Shown here piece by piece: positions 22,704 to 29,624 of a stretch of DNA of 64,000 bases. Every line of letters begins with the position of its first letter. The first letter of the stretch is position 1. Below the pieces are notes generated by a model. The model saw nothing but the letters and a program-made list of their open reading frames with translations. It made no database searches and was not told the origin of the DNA. The stretch is from Flavisolibacter ginsengisoli DSM 18119 (GTDB lineage Bacteria > Bacteroidota > Bacteroidia > Chitinophagales > Chitinophagaceae), in assembly GCF_900129295.1 (NCBI RefSeq), contig NZ_FQUU01000008.1, positions 1 through 64,000 on the forward strand, written 5' to 3'. Made by a program: the position numbers and the translations under genes.

Positions 22704-23975
22704 CTAATTAATACCTGCTAACTGTAGGCTAACTTTCTTTAATGAACTGGAAATTATGGCCTCTTTTTCTATAATGCTTTCCGGTAATAAGATTACTGAA
22801 ACAGCAGGGTCATTAAACCAGGATGCATTCTTTAATTTTTCAACATGGATCAGCCCCAGGAGATATTGCCTATTCTCGGTACTGTGAAATTCAGAGACCT
22901 GCTCAAAGTCCCATTTATTCACTTCTGACCAATCATTAAAACTTACAAACACCTTTAAATAATAGCTTGTTGTAATAGCATATTTTTCCTTTCGGTTCAA
23001 TTTCTTATACTCATATTTATAATCATAGCTCAACGCAGAAATATCGCTTATTACAGCTGAGGAAGTTGGATACCTTCCGGCACCTTTACCGTACAAAAAT
23101 TGCTTGTCTGCCAGTTTACTTTCAATGATTACTCCATTATACTCGTTCTTTACTCCATGTAATTGACTTTCTGCTTTTACAAATTGCGGAAGTACAAAAG
23201 CTGCCACTTTACCATTGGACAATTTATAGGCCTGTGCTGTTAATTTTACCTGGTATGCTTTTTCCTCGGCATAGCGTGTGTCAGTGGAATGCAAACGGGT
23301 GATCCCAAGATGTAATAATTCTTCGGGCCTTGTGATGATGCCATAAGCGTGTGCTAAAAGAATGGTCAATTTATTAGTAGCATCTTTCCCTTCCACATCA
23401 AGTGCCGGGTTGCTTTCGGCAAATCCTAATTGCTGGGCCTTTTGAAGCGCCTCGACATAAGTAAGTCCTTCATCTATGATCTTCGTGAGAATATAATTGG
23501 TAGAACCATTTACAATACCACAAATGCTTTGCAATAGATCATTATCATAGTATTCTTCAAGGTTTCTTATAATGGGAATACTGCCGCATACGGCTGCTTC
23601 ATACAAAAAGGAAACTTCATTTTCTTCCTGTAACTGCAATAATTCAGGCAAGTGTTCAGCAATCATTTTTTTATTAGCGCTTACAACAGATTTCTTATTC
23701 TTCAGAGCTGTTCTTACGATAGTGAAGGCTTCTTTTGCGTCATCAATCAATTCCACAACAATGTCTATTCCCGGATCATTTAATATCTCATCATAGTCCG
23801 TTGTAAACAAAGCAGCAGGTGCATTCCTTTCTTTTTCTGCATGCTTGATACACACCTTTTTGATGAGCGCATTTAGAGAGGGGGTTTGGTGCAAAACTTT
23901 ATAGATGCCTTCACCAACTACTCCAAATCCAAATAATCCTATCTGTAATACTTTATCGTGCTTCATGCTTTTCAT
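22704..23975 (-). CDS. hom: Homoserine dehydrogenase
   Basis: A 423-residue NAD(P)-dependent homoserine dehydrogenase, which makes homoserine from aspartate semialdehyde. The Rossmann motif is LFGFGVVGEGIYKVL. The catalytic part includes VSANKKMIAEHLPEL, YEAAVCGSIPIIRNLEEYY, GIVNGSTNYILTKI, the lysine-containing NPALDVEGKDATNKLTILL and GKGAGRYPTSSAVISDI. The last about 80 residues may be a degenerate regulatory domain. Its start (ATG at 23975, or 23966) overlaps the end of metX, so translation is coupled. It is the last gene of the methionine operon and supplies the substrate for MetX. Confidence 0.94.
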   Translation of the reverse strand: MKSMKHDKVLQIGLFGFGVVGEGIYKVLHQTPSLNALIKKVCIKHAEKERNAPAALFTTDYDEILNDPGIDIVVELIDDAKEAFTIVRTALKNKKSVVSANKKMIAEHLPELLQLQEENEVSFLYEAAVCGSIPIIRNLEEYYDNDLLQSICGIVNGSTNYILTKIIDEGLTYVEALQKAQQLGFAESNPALDVEGKDATNKLTILLAHAYGIITRPEELLHLGITRLHSTDTRYAEEKAYQVKLTAQAYKLSNGKVAAFVLPQFVKAESQLHGVKNEYNGVIIESKLADKQFLYGKGAGRYPTSSAVISDISALSYDYKYEYKKLNRKEKYAITTSYYLKVFVSFNDWSEVNKWDFEQVSEFHSTENRQYLLGLIHVEKLKNASWFNDPAVSVILLPESIIEKEAIISSSLKKVSLQLAGIN

Positions 23976-25035
23976 TTAATTGTGTAAATACTTTAGATTT
24001 TATATTAGTAATACCAAGGAACGGAATGATCAAATCAGTGATCTTTTCAAATTCCAGCAAAAAACCATCATGCCCATAATGAGAATCAATAATCGCCAGC
24101 TCTGCTGAAGGAATATAGCTTGCAAGGAATTCCTGCTCAACAGGAGGAAATAAAATATCTGATTGTATACTGATCACCAAAGTCTTTGCCCTTACCTGTT
24201 GCAGTGCTGTCTCGATGGATTTCCTTCCCCTTCCTACATCGTGGGAATCCATGGATTTACTTAGAAAATAGTAGCTAAAGGCATTGAACCTTCTTGCGAG
24301 TTTATCGCCCTGGTGTTGCTGGTAGGTTTCAGCTTTATAAATCTCTTTACCTGGGGTTGATGCAGAAAGATTATGCACTCCTTGCTGCGATGTACCATAA
24401 GTATAATAATTCCTGTAAGATAATAAGGCTACAGCTCTTGCAACCTTCATCCCATTTATGCCGGCTAACTCATTCTTCTCTTTCCATGTGGGATCGCCTT
24501 CTATGCAAAACCGTTGTGTTGCATTGAAGGCTATCCCCCAGGGTGAATGCCTGGCATTGGTAGCAATGGGAATGATATGTTCAAATAAACCTGGTTCTTC
24601 AATGGCCCACTCCAGCAATTGCTGCCCCCCCATTGAGCCACCAAGGCCAACCTTAATCCTGTGTATACCCAATTCTGTTTTCAAATGTCCATAAGCCCTT
24701 ATCATATCCCTTGTGGTAAAAGTGGGAAAATCATGATAATAGGGTTCATTTCCAGGAACATTAATATCGAGCGGAGAAATGCTGCCATAACAGCTTCCTG
24801 GCATGTTCACACAAACTATAAAATACTGTTGCGGATCAAATAAACATTGATCCCCTACCAAACCATACCACCACTCAGAGGGGTCACTGTTAGCAGTAAG
24901 CGCATGAAAGATCCATACAACATTATCTCCCTTATCATTTAAAGTACCAAGTGCTGTATACCCCAGATGGAATCCTGGTAATATTTCCCCGGACTCCAGG
25001 ATAAATGCATCCTTATAGTAAAATGTTTTTGTCAT
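23953..25035 (-). CDS. metX: Homoserine O-acetyltransferase
   Basis: A 360-residue alpha/beta-hydrolase-fold acyltransferase of the MetX family, which converts homoserine and acetyl-CoA to O-acetylhomoserine. The nucleophile elbow is GGSMGGQQLLEWA. The catalytic Asp lies in ISIQSDILFPP and the His in SHYGHDGFLLEFE. The acyl-channel region WWYGLVGDQCLFD is also present. Its ATG lies only 3 bases after the U-run of a hairpin between metY and metX, which may limit its expression. It overlaps hom by 14-23 bases. Confidence 0.95.
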   Translation of the reverse strand: MTKTFYYKDAFILESGEILPGFHLGYTALGTLNDKGDNVVWIFHALTANSDPSEWWYGLVGDQCLFDPQQYFIVCVNMPGSCYGSISPLDINVPGNEPYYHDFPTFTTRDMIRAYGHLKTELGIHRIKVGLGGSMGGQQLLEWAIEEPGLFEHIIPIATNARHSPWGIAFNATQRFCIEGDPTWKEKNELAGINGMKVARAVALLSYRNYYTYGTSQQGVHNLSASTPGKEIYKAETYQQHQGDKLARRFNAFSYYFLSKSMDSHDVGRGRKSIETALQQVRAKTLVISIQSDILFPPVEQEFLASYIPSAELAIIDSHYGHDGFLLEFEKITDLIIPFLGITNIKSKVFTQLNEKHEAR

Positions 25036-25083: not shown

Positions 25084-26415
<1,332 letters not shown>

Positions 26416-26443: not shown

Positions 26444-26574
26444 GTAGCGTCGGGGAACGGCCCAATGGACCATAGATTATAGTATGCCTTGCGGCATACA
26501 ACACATACAACAAGCTATGGAAAGCTTGCTTTTGTTTATGCTTGTATGTATTAATGTGTTCATGTAGACACTAC
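26444..26574 (-). ncRNA. Structured 131-nt RNA leader candidate upstream of metY
   Basis: Read on the minus strand, the segment folds by eye into a closed multi-helix structure. The closing helix is GUAGUGUC/GACGCUAC (26567-26574 with 26444-26451, one G-U). An 8-bp helix ACAUACAA/UUGUAUGU has an inner CAAGCU/AGCUUG hairpin. A 7-bp hairpin GUAUGCC-GCAA-GGCAUAC has a GNRA tetraloop, and there is a small GGUCC-AUU-GGGCC hairpin. An alternative helix CCAUAG/CUAUGG competes with part of this. It ends 40 bases before the metY start. It does not match the SAM-I consensus, which occurs separately upstream of the preceding gene, and no known class was recognised. It could be a riboswitch, a processing element or an independent small RNA. 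Confidence 0.6.
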
Positions 26575-26601
26575 AAATTTATACTAAATGATTTTTGATA
26601 T

Positions 26602-27795
26602 TTAAATGGCTATTTGCTTTTTTTCTGTTAAAGAACTAACCCCTTCAGTATTGGAAAGTTGATTCAATGCCTGCTCAAGGTCAGCTATAAGGTCCTCTGC
26701 ATCCTCAAGACCAACAGATAATCGCACAAGGCTATCAGCAACTCCTGCTGCCCTGCGTTTTGCTGCAGGTATTGATTTATGTGTCATGTTTGCCGGATGA
26801 CACAAAAGGCTTTTTACTCCGCCCAGGCTTTCGGCAAGCTTGAACAGCTTTGTTGAGATTACCAATTTCACCGCTGCTTCTTCTGTATCGTTCTTTAAAC
26901 TGAAAGAAACAATTCCTCCAAACCCCTTTGCCTGTTGTTTGGCAATTTCATGGTTGACATGTGATGGCAATCCAGGATAAAATACTTTATCGACAGCCAA
27001 ATGTGCTTCCAGGTATTCAGCAACTAATTGAGCATTAGCGCAGTGTTGCTTTATACGAAGTGGCAGGGTTTCAATGCCACGAATAACCAGCCAGCTATCA
27101 AATGGAGAAAGAATTGCACCGCTTGCATTTTGAATGAACCGTATCTTTTCTCCCAACTCTTTTTCTTTAGTAACTACCAGCCCTGCAATCAGGTCGCTAT
27201 GCCCCCCCAGGTATTTGGTGGCTGAATGAACTACAATATCTGCTCCCAGCGAAAGAGGTTTTTGCAGGGCGGGTGAAGCAAAAGTGTTATCCACACAAAG
27301 CCAACACCCTGAAGACTTCGCAATCCTGGCGATAGCTGCTATATCAGCAATCTTTAGTGTTGGATTGGTAGGCGTTTCAATCCAGATGAGCTTTGTCTTT
27401 GGTGTAATGGCATCAAAAACATTTTCTGCCTTTGTTGCATCAACATAGTTTACAGTAATTCCGAACTTTTGATAAACCTGGGTAAACAATCTGAAAGCAC
27501 CTCCATAAATATCATCTACAGCTAATATCTCATCGCCAGATTGTAACAGTTTAATCACGGCATCTATCGCTGCAAGGCCGCTGCCAAATGCCGCTCCCAC
27601 TTGTCCATCTTCCAGGTGTGCGATGAGGTCTTCCAATGCTGTGCGGGTAGGATTTCCGCTCCGTGCATAATCATAACCCTTATTCACACCAGGCGCTTCC
27701 TGTATAAAGGTGGAGGTCTGGTATATAGGCACTGAAATAGCGCCTGTTAATGGATCTACCGGAATGCTGTGAATGATGTCAGTTATATTGCTCAT
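26602..27795 (-). CDS. Cystathionine gamma-synthase/lyase family PLP enzyme
   Basis: A 397-residue trans-sulfuration enzyme. The PLP lysine lies in VVHSATKYLGGHSDLIAG, and YDYARSGNPTRTALEDLIAHLED, AFGSGLAAIDAVI and DNTFASPALQKPL are classic for the family. The C-terminus has SLGGVKSLLCHPANMTH and SLVRLSVGLEDAEDLIADL. Synthase (metB) and lyase functions cannot be separated by eye. Its place as first gene behind a SAM-I riboswitch, upstream of metY, metX and hom, argues for methionine synthesis through cystathionine as a second route beside MetY. Confidence 0.93.
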   Translation of the reverse strand: MSNITDIIHSIPVDPLTGAISVPIYQTSTFIQEAPGVNKGYDYARSGNPTRTALEDLIAHLEDGQVGAAFGSGLAAIDAVIKLLQSGDEILAVDDIYGGAFRLFTQVYQKFGITVNYVDATKAENVFDAITPKTKLIWIETPTNPTLKIADIAAIARIAKSSGCWLCVDNTFASPALQKPLSLGADIVVHSATKYLGGHSDLIAGLVVTKEKELGEKIRFIQNASGAILSPFDSWLVIRGIETLPLRIKQHCANAQLVAEYLEAHLAVDKVFYPGLPSHVNHEIAKQQAKGFGGIVSFSLKNDTEEAAVKLVISTKLFKLAESLGGVKSLLCHPANMTHKSIPAAKRRAAGVADSLVRLSVGLEDAEDLIADLEQALNQLSNTEGVSSLTEKKQIAI

Positions 27796-27938: not shown

Positions 27939-27977
27939 ATAATATTTTACAGTAGTAAATTTTAAAGCTATTATCTG

Positions 27978-28113
27978 ACTTATCTGTCACGCAATCTTCC
28001 TGCGTGATGGAGTTGGCACCTTATTCTCATTTTTATCCAAACAGGTTGTATAAAAAAAAGAACAGGTTGTCAAGGCTTCAAAGGGCCATATCCCTCAGCC
28101 TTTCTTGATAAGT
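27978..28113 (-). ncRNA. SAM-I (S-box) riboswitch aptamer
   Basis: The minus strand carries the S-box core: ACTTATCAAGAAAGGCTGAG, then GGGATATGGCCC, GAAGCC, GACAACC, later AAGGTGCCAACTCC, a variable hairpin (ATCACGCAGG...CTGCGTGAC type), and GATAAGT closing the 7-bp P1 helix. P1 is perfect (28107-28113 with 27978-27984). The aptamer is followed by a terminator and then the cystathionine synthase/lyase, metY, metX and hom genes. The expected behaviour is transcription termination at high S-adenosylmethionine. Confidence 0.96.
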
Positions 28114-28325
28114 AAATTAAAAAAGAACTGCCGCAAAGATAATAGTGATTATTTCTAACAAGCAAATTTTTTTTAAATGTCTGCCTATAAAAGGCATCTC
28201 CTTTTCTTTCTTTCACTGGTATTTTTCTATATGCTAATGGTTTAGAGGCTATAACAATTCCTTGATTTTTCCCCAAAATGCTAAATGTTTTAGGAAGTAC
28301 CGTTAATTTGTAAAAAAATACGAGG

Positions 28326-29624
28326 ATGTCAGCCAATCATATAAAGTGCCCTAATTGCGGAAATGAATTTGATGTGCAAGAAGTGCTTTCTGCCGATGCA
28401 GAACAAAAGATAAGGCAGGAGTATGAAAAACAGCTTCAGCAATCCCGGAACCAGGTAAGCCTTGAAAAGAAAAAGCTTGAGGAAGATCAGAAGTTGTTTG
28501 AAGAAAAGCGAAGGAAAGAAAATGAATTGTTCCAACAAAGGTTGCAGGCGGAAAAACAAAAACTGGAAACTGAGATCAATCAGCAATTACGAAAAAGCAT
28601 AGCCGCAGATTTCGAAAACCAGTTACGCCTGCTGCAGCAAAGTGCAAAAGATAATGAGGAAAAACTAAGGTCTGCCAGGTTGAAGGAAATGGAATACCTG
28701 CAAAAGGAAGAAGCACTCAAAATGAAAGAACAAGAAATAGAACTGGAAGCCAAACGTGCCATGCAAAAAGAGAGAGAAAGGCTTTCAGACGAGATCCGCA
28801 AGATGGAAGCGCAGAAAAATGAAGCCCGCGAACACGAATACCAGCTAAAGCTAAAAGAACTTGAAAAGCAACTGGATGATCAACGAAAGCTGGCAGATGA
28901 AATGAAAAGAAAGGCAGAACAAGGTTCCATGCAATTGCAGGGGGAAGTGCAGGAACTATTGCTGGAAGAGATATTGAAAGATCATTTTCCTTTTGATGGC
29001 ATTGGTGAAGTGGGCAAAGGTGTAGAAGGAGCAGATTGTATCCAGGTTGTACGTAATCATCTTGGTCACGATTGCGGCAAGATCATTTTTGAAAGCAAAC
29101 GCACCAAGTCATTCAATAATGGTTGGATAGAAAAGCTGAAAGCAGATATGCGCAATAAGCAGGCAGATGTGGCTATATTGGTAACACAGGCTTATCCAAA
29201 AGAAATGACCTGCTTCGGAGAAAAGGATGGTGTATGGATCTGTTCCTTCAGTGAAGTATTGGCGCTTACCAATGCACTCAGGCATACCATTATCCGCATT
29301 GCAGAAACAAAGAAAGCAGAAGAAAATAAGGGCGAGAAAATGCAGATGCTCTATGGTTACCTGACAGGCATAGAATTTCGCCAACAAATAGAAACAATTG
29401 TAGAAGGATTTCTTTCCATGAAAAACTCCATATCAAAAGAAAGGATACAAATGGAAAAGATATGGAAAGAAAGAGAAAAACAATTAGAAAGAGTATTGCT
29501 TAGCACATCCGGAATGTATGGTTCTATTAAAGGAATTGCAGGCGCTTCTATCGGCAACATTCCACTACTTGAGGATGGACTTGATGAAGAAGAAGAATCA
29601 GATCAGAAATTACTGGTAAAATAA
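28326..29624 (+). CDS. DUF2130 protein: zinc-finger-like N-terminus, coiled coil, predicted nuclease-like domain
   Basis: A 432-residue cytoplasmic protein. The N-terminus has a CPNCGNEF motif (one CxxC knuckle), followed by about 180 residues of strongly charged coiled coil (roughly residues 20-205). The C-terminal DUF2130 domain contains GADCIQVV followed by CGKIIFESKRTKSFNNGW, a spacing like the D...ExK core of PD-(D/E)XK nucleases, then QADVAILVTQAYPKEM. The family function is not established to my knowledge; nuclease activity is my inference from the motif. It is monocistronic and unrelated to its neighbours. Confidence 0.88.
   Translation: MSANHIKCPNCGNEFDVQEVLSADAEQKIRQEYEKQLQQSRNQVSLEKKKLEEDQKLFEEKRRKENELFQQRLQAEKQKLETEINQQLRKSIAADFENQLRLLQQSAKDNEEKLRSARLKEMEYLQKEEALKMKEQEIELEAKRAMQKERERLSDEIRKMEAQKNEAREHEYQLKLKELEKQLDDQRKLADEMKRKAEQGSMQLQGEVQELLLEEILKDHFPFDGIGEVGKGVEGADCIQVVRNHLGHDCGKIIFESKRTKSFNNGWIEKLKADMRNKQADVAILVTQAYPKEMTCFGEKDGVWICSFSEVLALTNALRHTIIRIAETKKAEENKGEKMQMLYGYLTGIEFRQQIETIVEGFLSMKNSISKERIQMEKIWKEREKQLERVLLSTSGMYGSIKGIAGASIGNIPLLEDGLDEEEESDQKLLVK

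Follow-up and report, generated by a model that had tools for sequence, protein, structure and literature searches.

The window, the 64,000 nt of Flavisolibacter ginsengisoli DNA analysed here, carries on its minus strand a methionine operon that begins with a SAM-I riboswitch and contains, just upstream of metY, a second structured RNA of 131 bases (26444-26574). The question raised by this locus is what the second RNA reads. Based on comparison with related genomes, it is very probably a ribosome-mediated, cysteine-responsive attenuator used beside SAM-I. The first-pass annotation had proposed a structured cis-regulatory RNA on the metY strand of a SAM-I operon, and this part stands; a Cys-rich leader peptide encoded on the same strand had been missed.

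The SAM-I aptamer (RF00162, 79.3 bits, 27977..28114) was confirmed at the head of the operon and is a separate element, approximately 1.4 kb upstream of the leader. It is followed, in minus-strand order, by a cystathionine gamma-synthase/lyase family gene (26602..27795; best match NF005810, 519 bits, below the cut-off of 594), the leader element, metY for O-acetylhomoserine sulfhydrylase (25084..26403; TIGR01326, 676 bits, cut-off 495), a metX-like gene (23953..25035; best match TIGR01392, 321 bits, below the cut-off of 500) and the homoserine dehydrogenase gene hom (22704..23975; NF004976, 326 bits, cut-off 205). The distance from the element to the metY start at 26403 is 40 nt, as originally given. 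The plus strand of the window also has an ORF of 432 aa at 28326-29624, which looks coiled-coil-like by eye and gave no NCBIfam match.

Folding of the minus strand from 26574 to 26444 returned the multi-helix structure of the first-pass annotation as both the MFE and the centroid, with an energy of -46.9 kcal/mol compared to -26.9 +/- 3.3 kcal/mol for shuffles (z -6.1; none of 200 shuffles equalled it). Three predicted helices were recovered as annotated: the 8-bp end helix P1, pairing 26574-26567 with 26451-26444; the 7-bp hairpin H1, GUAUGCC-GCAA-GGCAUAC (26482..26499, pairing 26499-26493 with 26488-26482), which lies over the last codons of the leader; and a 5-bp hairpin, GGUCC-AUU-GGGCC (26459..26471, pairing 26471-26467 with 26463-26459), which has no U-tract behind it. 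The long helix P2 (26500..26552) with its inner hairpin was also present, but measured 10 bp rather than the 8 bp reported; in it, 26552-26543 in the 5' half of the ORF pairs with 26509-26500 in the Cys-codon stretch, and the inner hairpin has 7 bp (26529-26523 with 26516-26510). The competing CCAUAG/CUAUGG pair that had been noted does occur in the window, but it was not seen by eye in L152, which has a weak end helix only. This locus, from the same genus and with a metY 87% identical, is the closest relative carrying the element.

No Rfam family matched 26444-26574 at the gathering score, and a relaxed threshold gave chance-level matches (best E 1.2), which agrees with its annotation as an unrecognised RNA. 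A repeat or mobile element was rejected, as the genome holds one full copy and the next best match has an E of 0.036 over 23 bases. The first-pass annotation leaned towards a metabolite-binding riboswitch, in which the RNA itself would bind SAM, homocysteine, O-acetylhomoserine or another ligand. The stable multi-helix fold and the GNRA hairpin are in keeping with such a switch, whereas the lack of an Rfam match counts against it.

The leader ORF and its conservation before metY

The element contains an unannotated ORF of 28 aa, MNTLIHTSINKSKLSIACCMCCMPQGIL, on the minus strand (26477..26563; ATG at 26563, stop TAA at 26479-26477), with the putative regulatory codon run TGT TGT ATG TGT TGT (Cys-Cys-Met-Cys-Cys) at 26498..26512. 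The Cys codons of the leader lie within the 3' side of the long helix, and its last codons form the GCAA hairpin. Ten bases before the ATG lies a predicted Bacteroidota promoter -7 box, TAAATTTG (26574..26581, minus strand), matching the consensus TAnnTTTG given in the available text of PMC7366714. The first base of the 131-base element, G26574, is the last base of this box, and the 5' arm of P1 (26567..26574) shares that one base with it. From the box, the transcription start was estimated to be near 26571, which would leave the leader ATG approximately 4-8 nt from the mRNA 5' end. Transcripts reading through from the SAM-I promoter would have a long 5' end. A transcript folded from the predicted start near 26571 does not form the end helix of the window, and a longer read-through transcript does.

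In the window alone, the Cys score was reached by 43 of 5000 shuffles, so the case for the leader rests on conservation. A DNA search of 294 family genomes gave matches in 19, the source genome included. For 16 of the other 18, the match covered the GNRA hairpin and adjoining bases only, and for the remaining two a stretch near the metY start. The bases on the hairpin side read, in one frame, as a Cys-codon run and then Met-Pro. This Cys-hairpin pattern, TGYTGYATGCCGYAAGGCAT, occurred with at most one mismatch at 47 places in 46 of 394 family genomes; the backwards control gave none. Forty-two of the places are metY leaders, including all 36 exact matches, and 41 lie before metY on the metY strand. 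The match at L140 is a metY leader read on the opposite strand, because the hairpin is palindromic. Five places, all with one mismatch, had no metY found nearby, and the three pattern places without a locus in the strand tally are L015, L020 and L026.

The locus sets consist of the best-scoring loci of the searches. Among the best 80 of 573 confirmed metY relatives (the protein-found set), ORFs carrying 4 or more Cys in a stretch of 8 codons, no further than 230 nt from metY, were present at 41 loci on the metY strand versus 4 on the other strand, and 39 loci were without a Cys run of this kind. A hairpin of at least 5 bp directly follows the last Cys codon in 30 of the 41 leaders, with 5.5 expected from other positions in the same upstreams. 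When hairpin-selected loci were included, 112 unique metY upstreams gave 66 forward and 10 reverse cases, where dinucleotide shuffles predict about one; these upstreams remained from 143 loci once seven without metY (L019, L023, L112, L114, L116, L131 and L148) and then duplicates had been left out. Upstreams of up to 200 nt of other genes at the same loci reached 4 Cys in only 3 of 191 cases, two of which look like cysH by eye. Among six further metY loci detected in the genus, inspection by eye showed a leader only in L152; L153 has a SAM-I-like sequence in its place, and none was seen in L154-L157.

The reading frame was followed in a hairpin set of 59 sequences, which had been selected by allowing up to 2 mismatches and requiring 2 or more Cys in 8 codons and is therefore biased towards the hairpin; its members less than 80% alike gave 49 representatives. 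An ATG 5-30 nt after the box, with an ORF open to the hairpin, was present in the Cys frame of 48 representatives and in each other frame of none. The TAnnTTTG-like box lies a median of 15 nt (7-28) before the in-frame ATG in these 48; in the window this distance is 10 nt. The one representative without such an ATG, L144, may use GTG as its start, judging by eye. The two codons preceding the conserved Met encode Cys in 46 and 43 of the 49. Over the last eight codons, 168 TGT and 55 TGC were counted, so both Cys codons are used. The stop directly follows Met-Pro in 33 representatives, mostly as a UAA within a GUAA loop; the window instead has a GCAA loop, with its stop placed immediately past the hairpin.

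The frequent Met-Pro-stop ending would also suit an arrest peptide, in which the nascent chain is the sensor and its Cys-Cys-Met-Pro end, with the stop in the hairpin loop, would stall the ribosome at termination in response to free cysteine, sulfide or a metal. Termination after Pro is slow, which fits this reading. However, 16 representatives, the window among them, have the stop 4-9 codons beyond the Met, the number and spacing of the Cys residues vary, and the leaders of other families and of cysH mostly end in Cys-stop or nearly so. An arrest peptide was considered very unlikely.

Recurrence of a Cys-rich ORF could alternatively reflect a small functional Cys-rich protein, with a metal or redox role, that is merely an operon neighbour. 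This was judged extremely unlikely, as the N-terminal part varies and the bases encoding it show a tendency to pair with those of the Cys run, the Cys spacing is not fixed, and the ORF is found before metY and cysH and rarely before other genes. As expected of a leader-peptide attenuator of the mycobacterial type, the short ORF is conserved, has its Cys-codon run close to the stop and precedes a gene of sulfur metabolism.

Across the phylum, metY was present in 154 of 247 genomes. At least 4 Cys in 6 codons occurred upstream in 8 of 29 metY loci (the window's own locus excluded), all 8 belonging to other families of the same class. In distant metY leaders (L083, L084, L087, L088, L096-L098, L100 and L104), whose titles include Flammeovirgaceae, Cytophagales, Cyclobacteriaceae and others, the Cys codons stand at the stop or one codon from it. 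Several of these share a downstream stretch like CUGCC..GUGACAGG; judged by eye, these distant leaders keep the codon logic in an RNA of another architecture. The metY upstreams of L036 and L067 contain short ORFs ending in ..HCCQWLPRC and ..HCNPWLPRC, possibly another type of leader.

Base pairing across species

The RNAalifold consensus of a MAFFT alignment of 40 sequences, from which L046, L070, L090 and L091 had been left out beforehand, contained only the GNRA hairpin, with 4 bp; P1 and P2 were absent from it. Alignment A1 left out 7 of the 59 sequences (L039, L040 and L095 with 3-base loops; L011, L012, L013 and L125 as near duplicates). In the covariation test of the terminal hairpin, 92.7% of the cells were paired, and covariation was no more than in shuffles. 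The stem is nearly invariant and was selected by sequence, which accounts for the absence of covariation. Paired changes were few (L056, L071 and L099). Support for the hairpin therefore comes from where it lies, since 30 of 41 leaders have it immediately behind their final Cys codon, and from these few paired changes rather than from covariation.

Pairing between the 5' end and the stretch after the hairpin was enriched. With species-swapped partners, 33 of 5000 permutations reached the helix score and 7 of 5000 the energy; compared to shuffles, z was 3.8 for the helix score and -5.1 for the energy. The species-swap test scanned 34 nt downstream, short of the window's own end-helix arm, and the shuffle test 45 nt; the window scored only 11.5 in the former because the 34-nt stretch stops before that arm. 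Pairing between the 5' part of the ORF and the Cys run also exceeded shuffles in the 49 representatives (z 4.65 for the helix score, -3.97 for the energy). Neither hairpin arm had a significant partner in the downstream sequence by helix score (z 0.58 and -0.25); the corresponding energies gave z -2.24 and -1.6. The end helix and the long helix of the first-pass annotation thus have statistical counterparts in the family. Its expectation of covarying homologues upstream of metY was borne out as to their existence and the enriched end-helix pairing, but not for the GNRA hairpin, where covariation did not rise above shuffles.

For a riboswitch, the cross-species enrichment of pairing between the 5' end and downstream sequence would be a further point. 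Against it, the best-conserved part is the in-frame Cys-codon run together with the hairpin that covers the end of the ORF, the other sequence varies widely by eye, and the alignment of 40 retains only the hairpin. No aptamer core conserved independently of the ORF was found among these sequences; conservation tracks the codon run and the hairpin on the ORF end. The element is therefore most likely read by a ribosome rather than serving as a ligand pocket, and a metabolite-binding riboswitch was regarded as very unlikely.

SAM-I and a second leader before cysH

The first-pass annotation had considered a second regulatory RNA in one methionine operon unusual. This did not hold: 13 of 15 leader-bearing metY loci scanned (drawn from the 21 protein-found loci of the hairpin set) also have SAM-I upstream on the metY strand. 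In 8 of these 13, no gene lies between SAM-I and the leader (no ATG ORF longer than 41 aa); 7 of the 8 have a T6 run 63-70 nt after the aptamer, and the eighth, L066, has T5. SAM-I was also found in 7 of 15 leaderless metY loci (fewer than 4 Cys in 8 codons). At L028, L032, L049, L053 and L058, and by eye at L153, metY stands directly under SAM-I without a Cys leader, so that the two controls seem exchangeable between species.

A codon pattern for Cys runs occurred at 42 places in the source genome, one being the window's own and the other 41 all examined. When the next genes were judged by eye, the only sulfur genes immediately preceded by a short ORF with such a run were metY and a cysH. This second Cys leader lies between SAM-I and cysH (L189/L217, contig C10 near 349,000), the gene being identified by NF002537 and TIGR02055, both above cut-off. 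SAM-I is upstream on the same strand and a T-run terminator, seen by eye, precedes the leader, giving SAM-I, terminator and Cys-rich leader in tandem before cysH.

Among 195 family genomes, cysH was present in 116. At least 4 Cys in 8 codons occurred upstream in 20 of the best 30 cysH loci versus 1 of 30 on the other strand. A scan of 20 cysH loci showed SAM-I in 3: L217 (source genome) and L218 (same genus) have it on the cysH strand, L227 on the other strand; the company of SAM-I and cysH was hence seen only within the genus. Comparison thus supports the ORF, its frame, the Cys run before metY and cysH, the terminal hairpin and the company of SAM-I. Elsewhere in the source genome (L196, contig C16 near 40,940), a short ORF with five Cys codons lies approximately 150 nt before an IMP dehydrogenase-like gene (by eye).

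Proposed mechanism, related systems and output

The genes concerned make or use reduced sulfur, so Cys codons fit the pathway. In the attenuator proposed here, a ribosome would start on the short leader ORF, probably a few bases from the mRNA 5' end, and would read the Cys-codon run just before the ORF ends. With ample Cys-tRNA, the ribosome would finish and leave, the 5' half of the ORF would re-pair with the Cys-codon stretch, the terminal hairpin would re-form and metY expression would presumably be low. With scarce Cys-tRNA, the ribosome would be held on the Cys codons, keeping both hairpins open, and metY, whose product fixes sulfide into homocysteine, would be expressed. The output may be termination by Rho or a change in how accessible the metY start is; a few species may use an intrinsic terminator.

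TnaC of E. coli senses free Trp through its nascent chain, unlike the window leader, for which the codon run is the likelier sensor; the two are alike in that the leader stop is close to a proposed Rho entry stretch. The tna operon is named as a Rho model in the available text of PMC1262725. Cys leader peptides before actinobacterial, mainly mycobacterial, cys genes are described in the available portions of PMC1262725, PMC4633059 and PMC13236596. There, PMC1262725 gives no conserved terminator hairpins, suggests Rho and notes a polypyrimidine stretch after the ORF; PMC4633059 has Cys-codon ORFs on leaderless mRNAs, to which the predicted closeness of the window ATG to the 5' end corresponds; and PMC13236596 presents a mycobacterial case said to act on translation. 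Like these, the present leaders are short ORFs that precede genes of cysteine or sulfur metabolism and have Cys codons close to their stop, a likeness judged from the Cys run. They differ in belonging to Bacteroidota, in the conserved hairpin on the last codons, in standing before metY and cysH, and in sharing an operon or 5' UTR with SAM-I.

For uORFC-8-2 before cysS in Rhodobacterales, the available part of PMC8632094 likewise describes uORF Cys codons in a stem and proposes ribosome-mediated attenuation. It differs in the cysS gene, in having two tandem Cys codons and in a U run for an intrinsic terminator; the window leader was not assigned to it, as its downstream gene is metY and no terminator-like site is present in the window. 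Leader-peptide attenuation before amino-acid operons of Flavobacterium is covered in PMC9723704, cysteine not being named in the sections consulted, and leader-peptide-like short ORFs in Bacteroides in the available text of PMC7366714. By title and abstract, none of the matches listed from the open-access literature concerned Cys leaders before metY or cysH in Bacteroidota.

If correct, cysteine attenuation by leader peptides, so far shown or predicted in actinobacteria and alphaproteobacteria, would reach a third large group. Such control would precede metY, which fixes sulfide, as well as cysH, which acts in sulfate reduction, and within one operon a riboswitch and a codon sensor would each read a different product of a single pathway. 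As a caution, a translated leader can present itself as a stable fold that Rfam does not match. More tentatively, and with considerable doubt, a two-input sulfur gate may be envisaged in Bacteroidota: SAM-I would end transcription at high SAM, and a near-leaderless poly-Cys leader with a hairpin at its end, sharing the 5' UTR or operon, would make Rho, or else the start of metY or cysH, responsive to Cys-tRNA. A second input, from the nascent chain or from Met, could come from the Met-Pro-stop that most relatives hold in the GNRA loop.

Regarding the output, no terminator-like site, and so no classical trp-type intrinsic terminator, was found between H1 and metY in the window. Terminator-like sites occurred in 6 of 49 representatives versus 1.4 expected, and in 2 of 54 leaderless metY upstreams versus 1.6 expected. 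Intrinsic termination as the general output was therefore rejected for the window, which leaves termination by Rho or control at the level of translation. Behind the leader, the sequence is C-rich and G-poor (C minus G 0.14 versus 0.011 in 220 control upstreams, p ~1e-20), and leaderless metY upstreams show part of the same bias (C 0.208, G 0.127). Such a composition is as expected of a Rho entry site without proving one, and is the sole support for Rho. Occlusion of the metY start was not seen in the folding models: it was 0.63 unpaired in the three modelled states and 0.61 in the longer transcript, the same with or without the modelled ribosome. Since the mycobacterial Cys leaders are said, in the available text of PMC13236596, to act on translation, a translational output was considered equally possible.

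One further sequence feature was observed at metY promoters. The palindrome CTACTAAATTTGTAG is absent from the source genome at one mismatch and was rejected as an operator for the window. In other genomes, a palindromic box close to it stands at the promoter of many metY loci (e.g. L045, L064, L093 and L103), with or without a leader, and is a possible repressor site.
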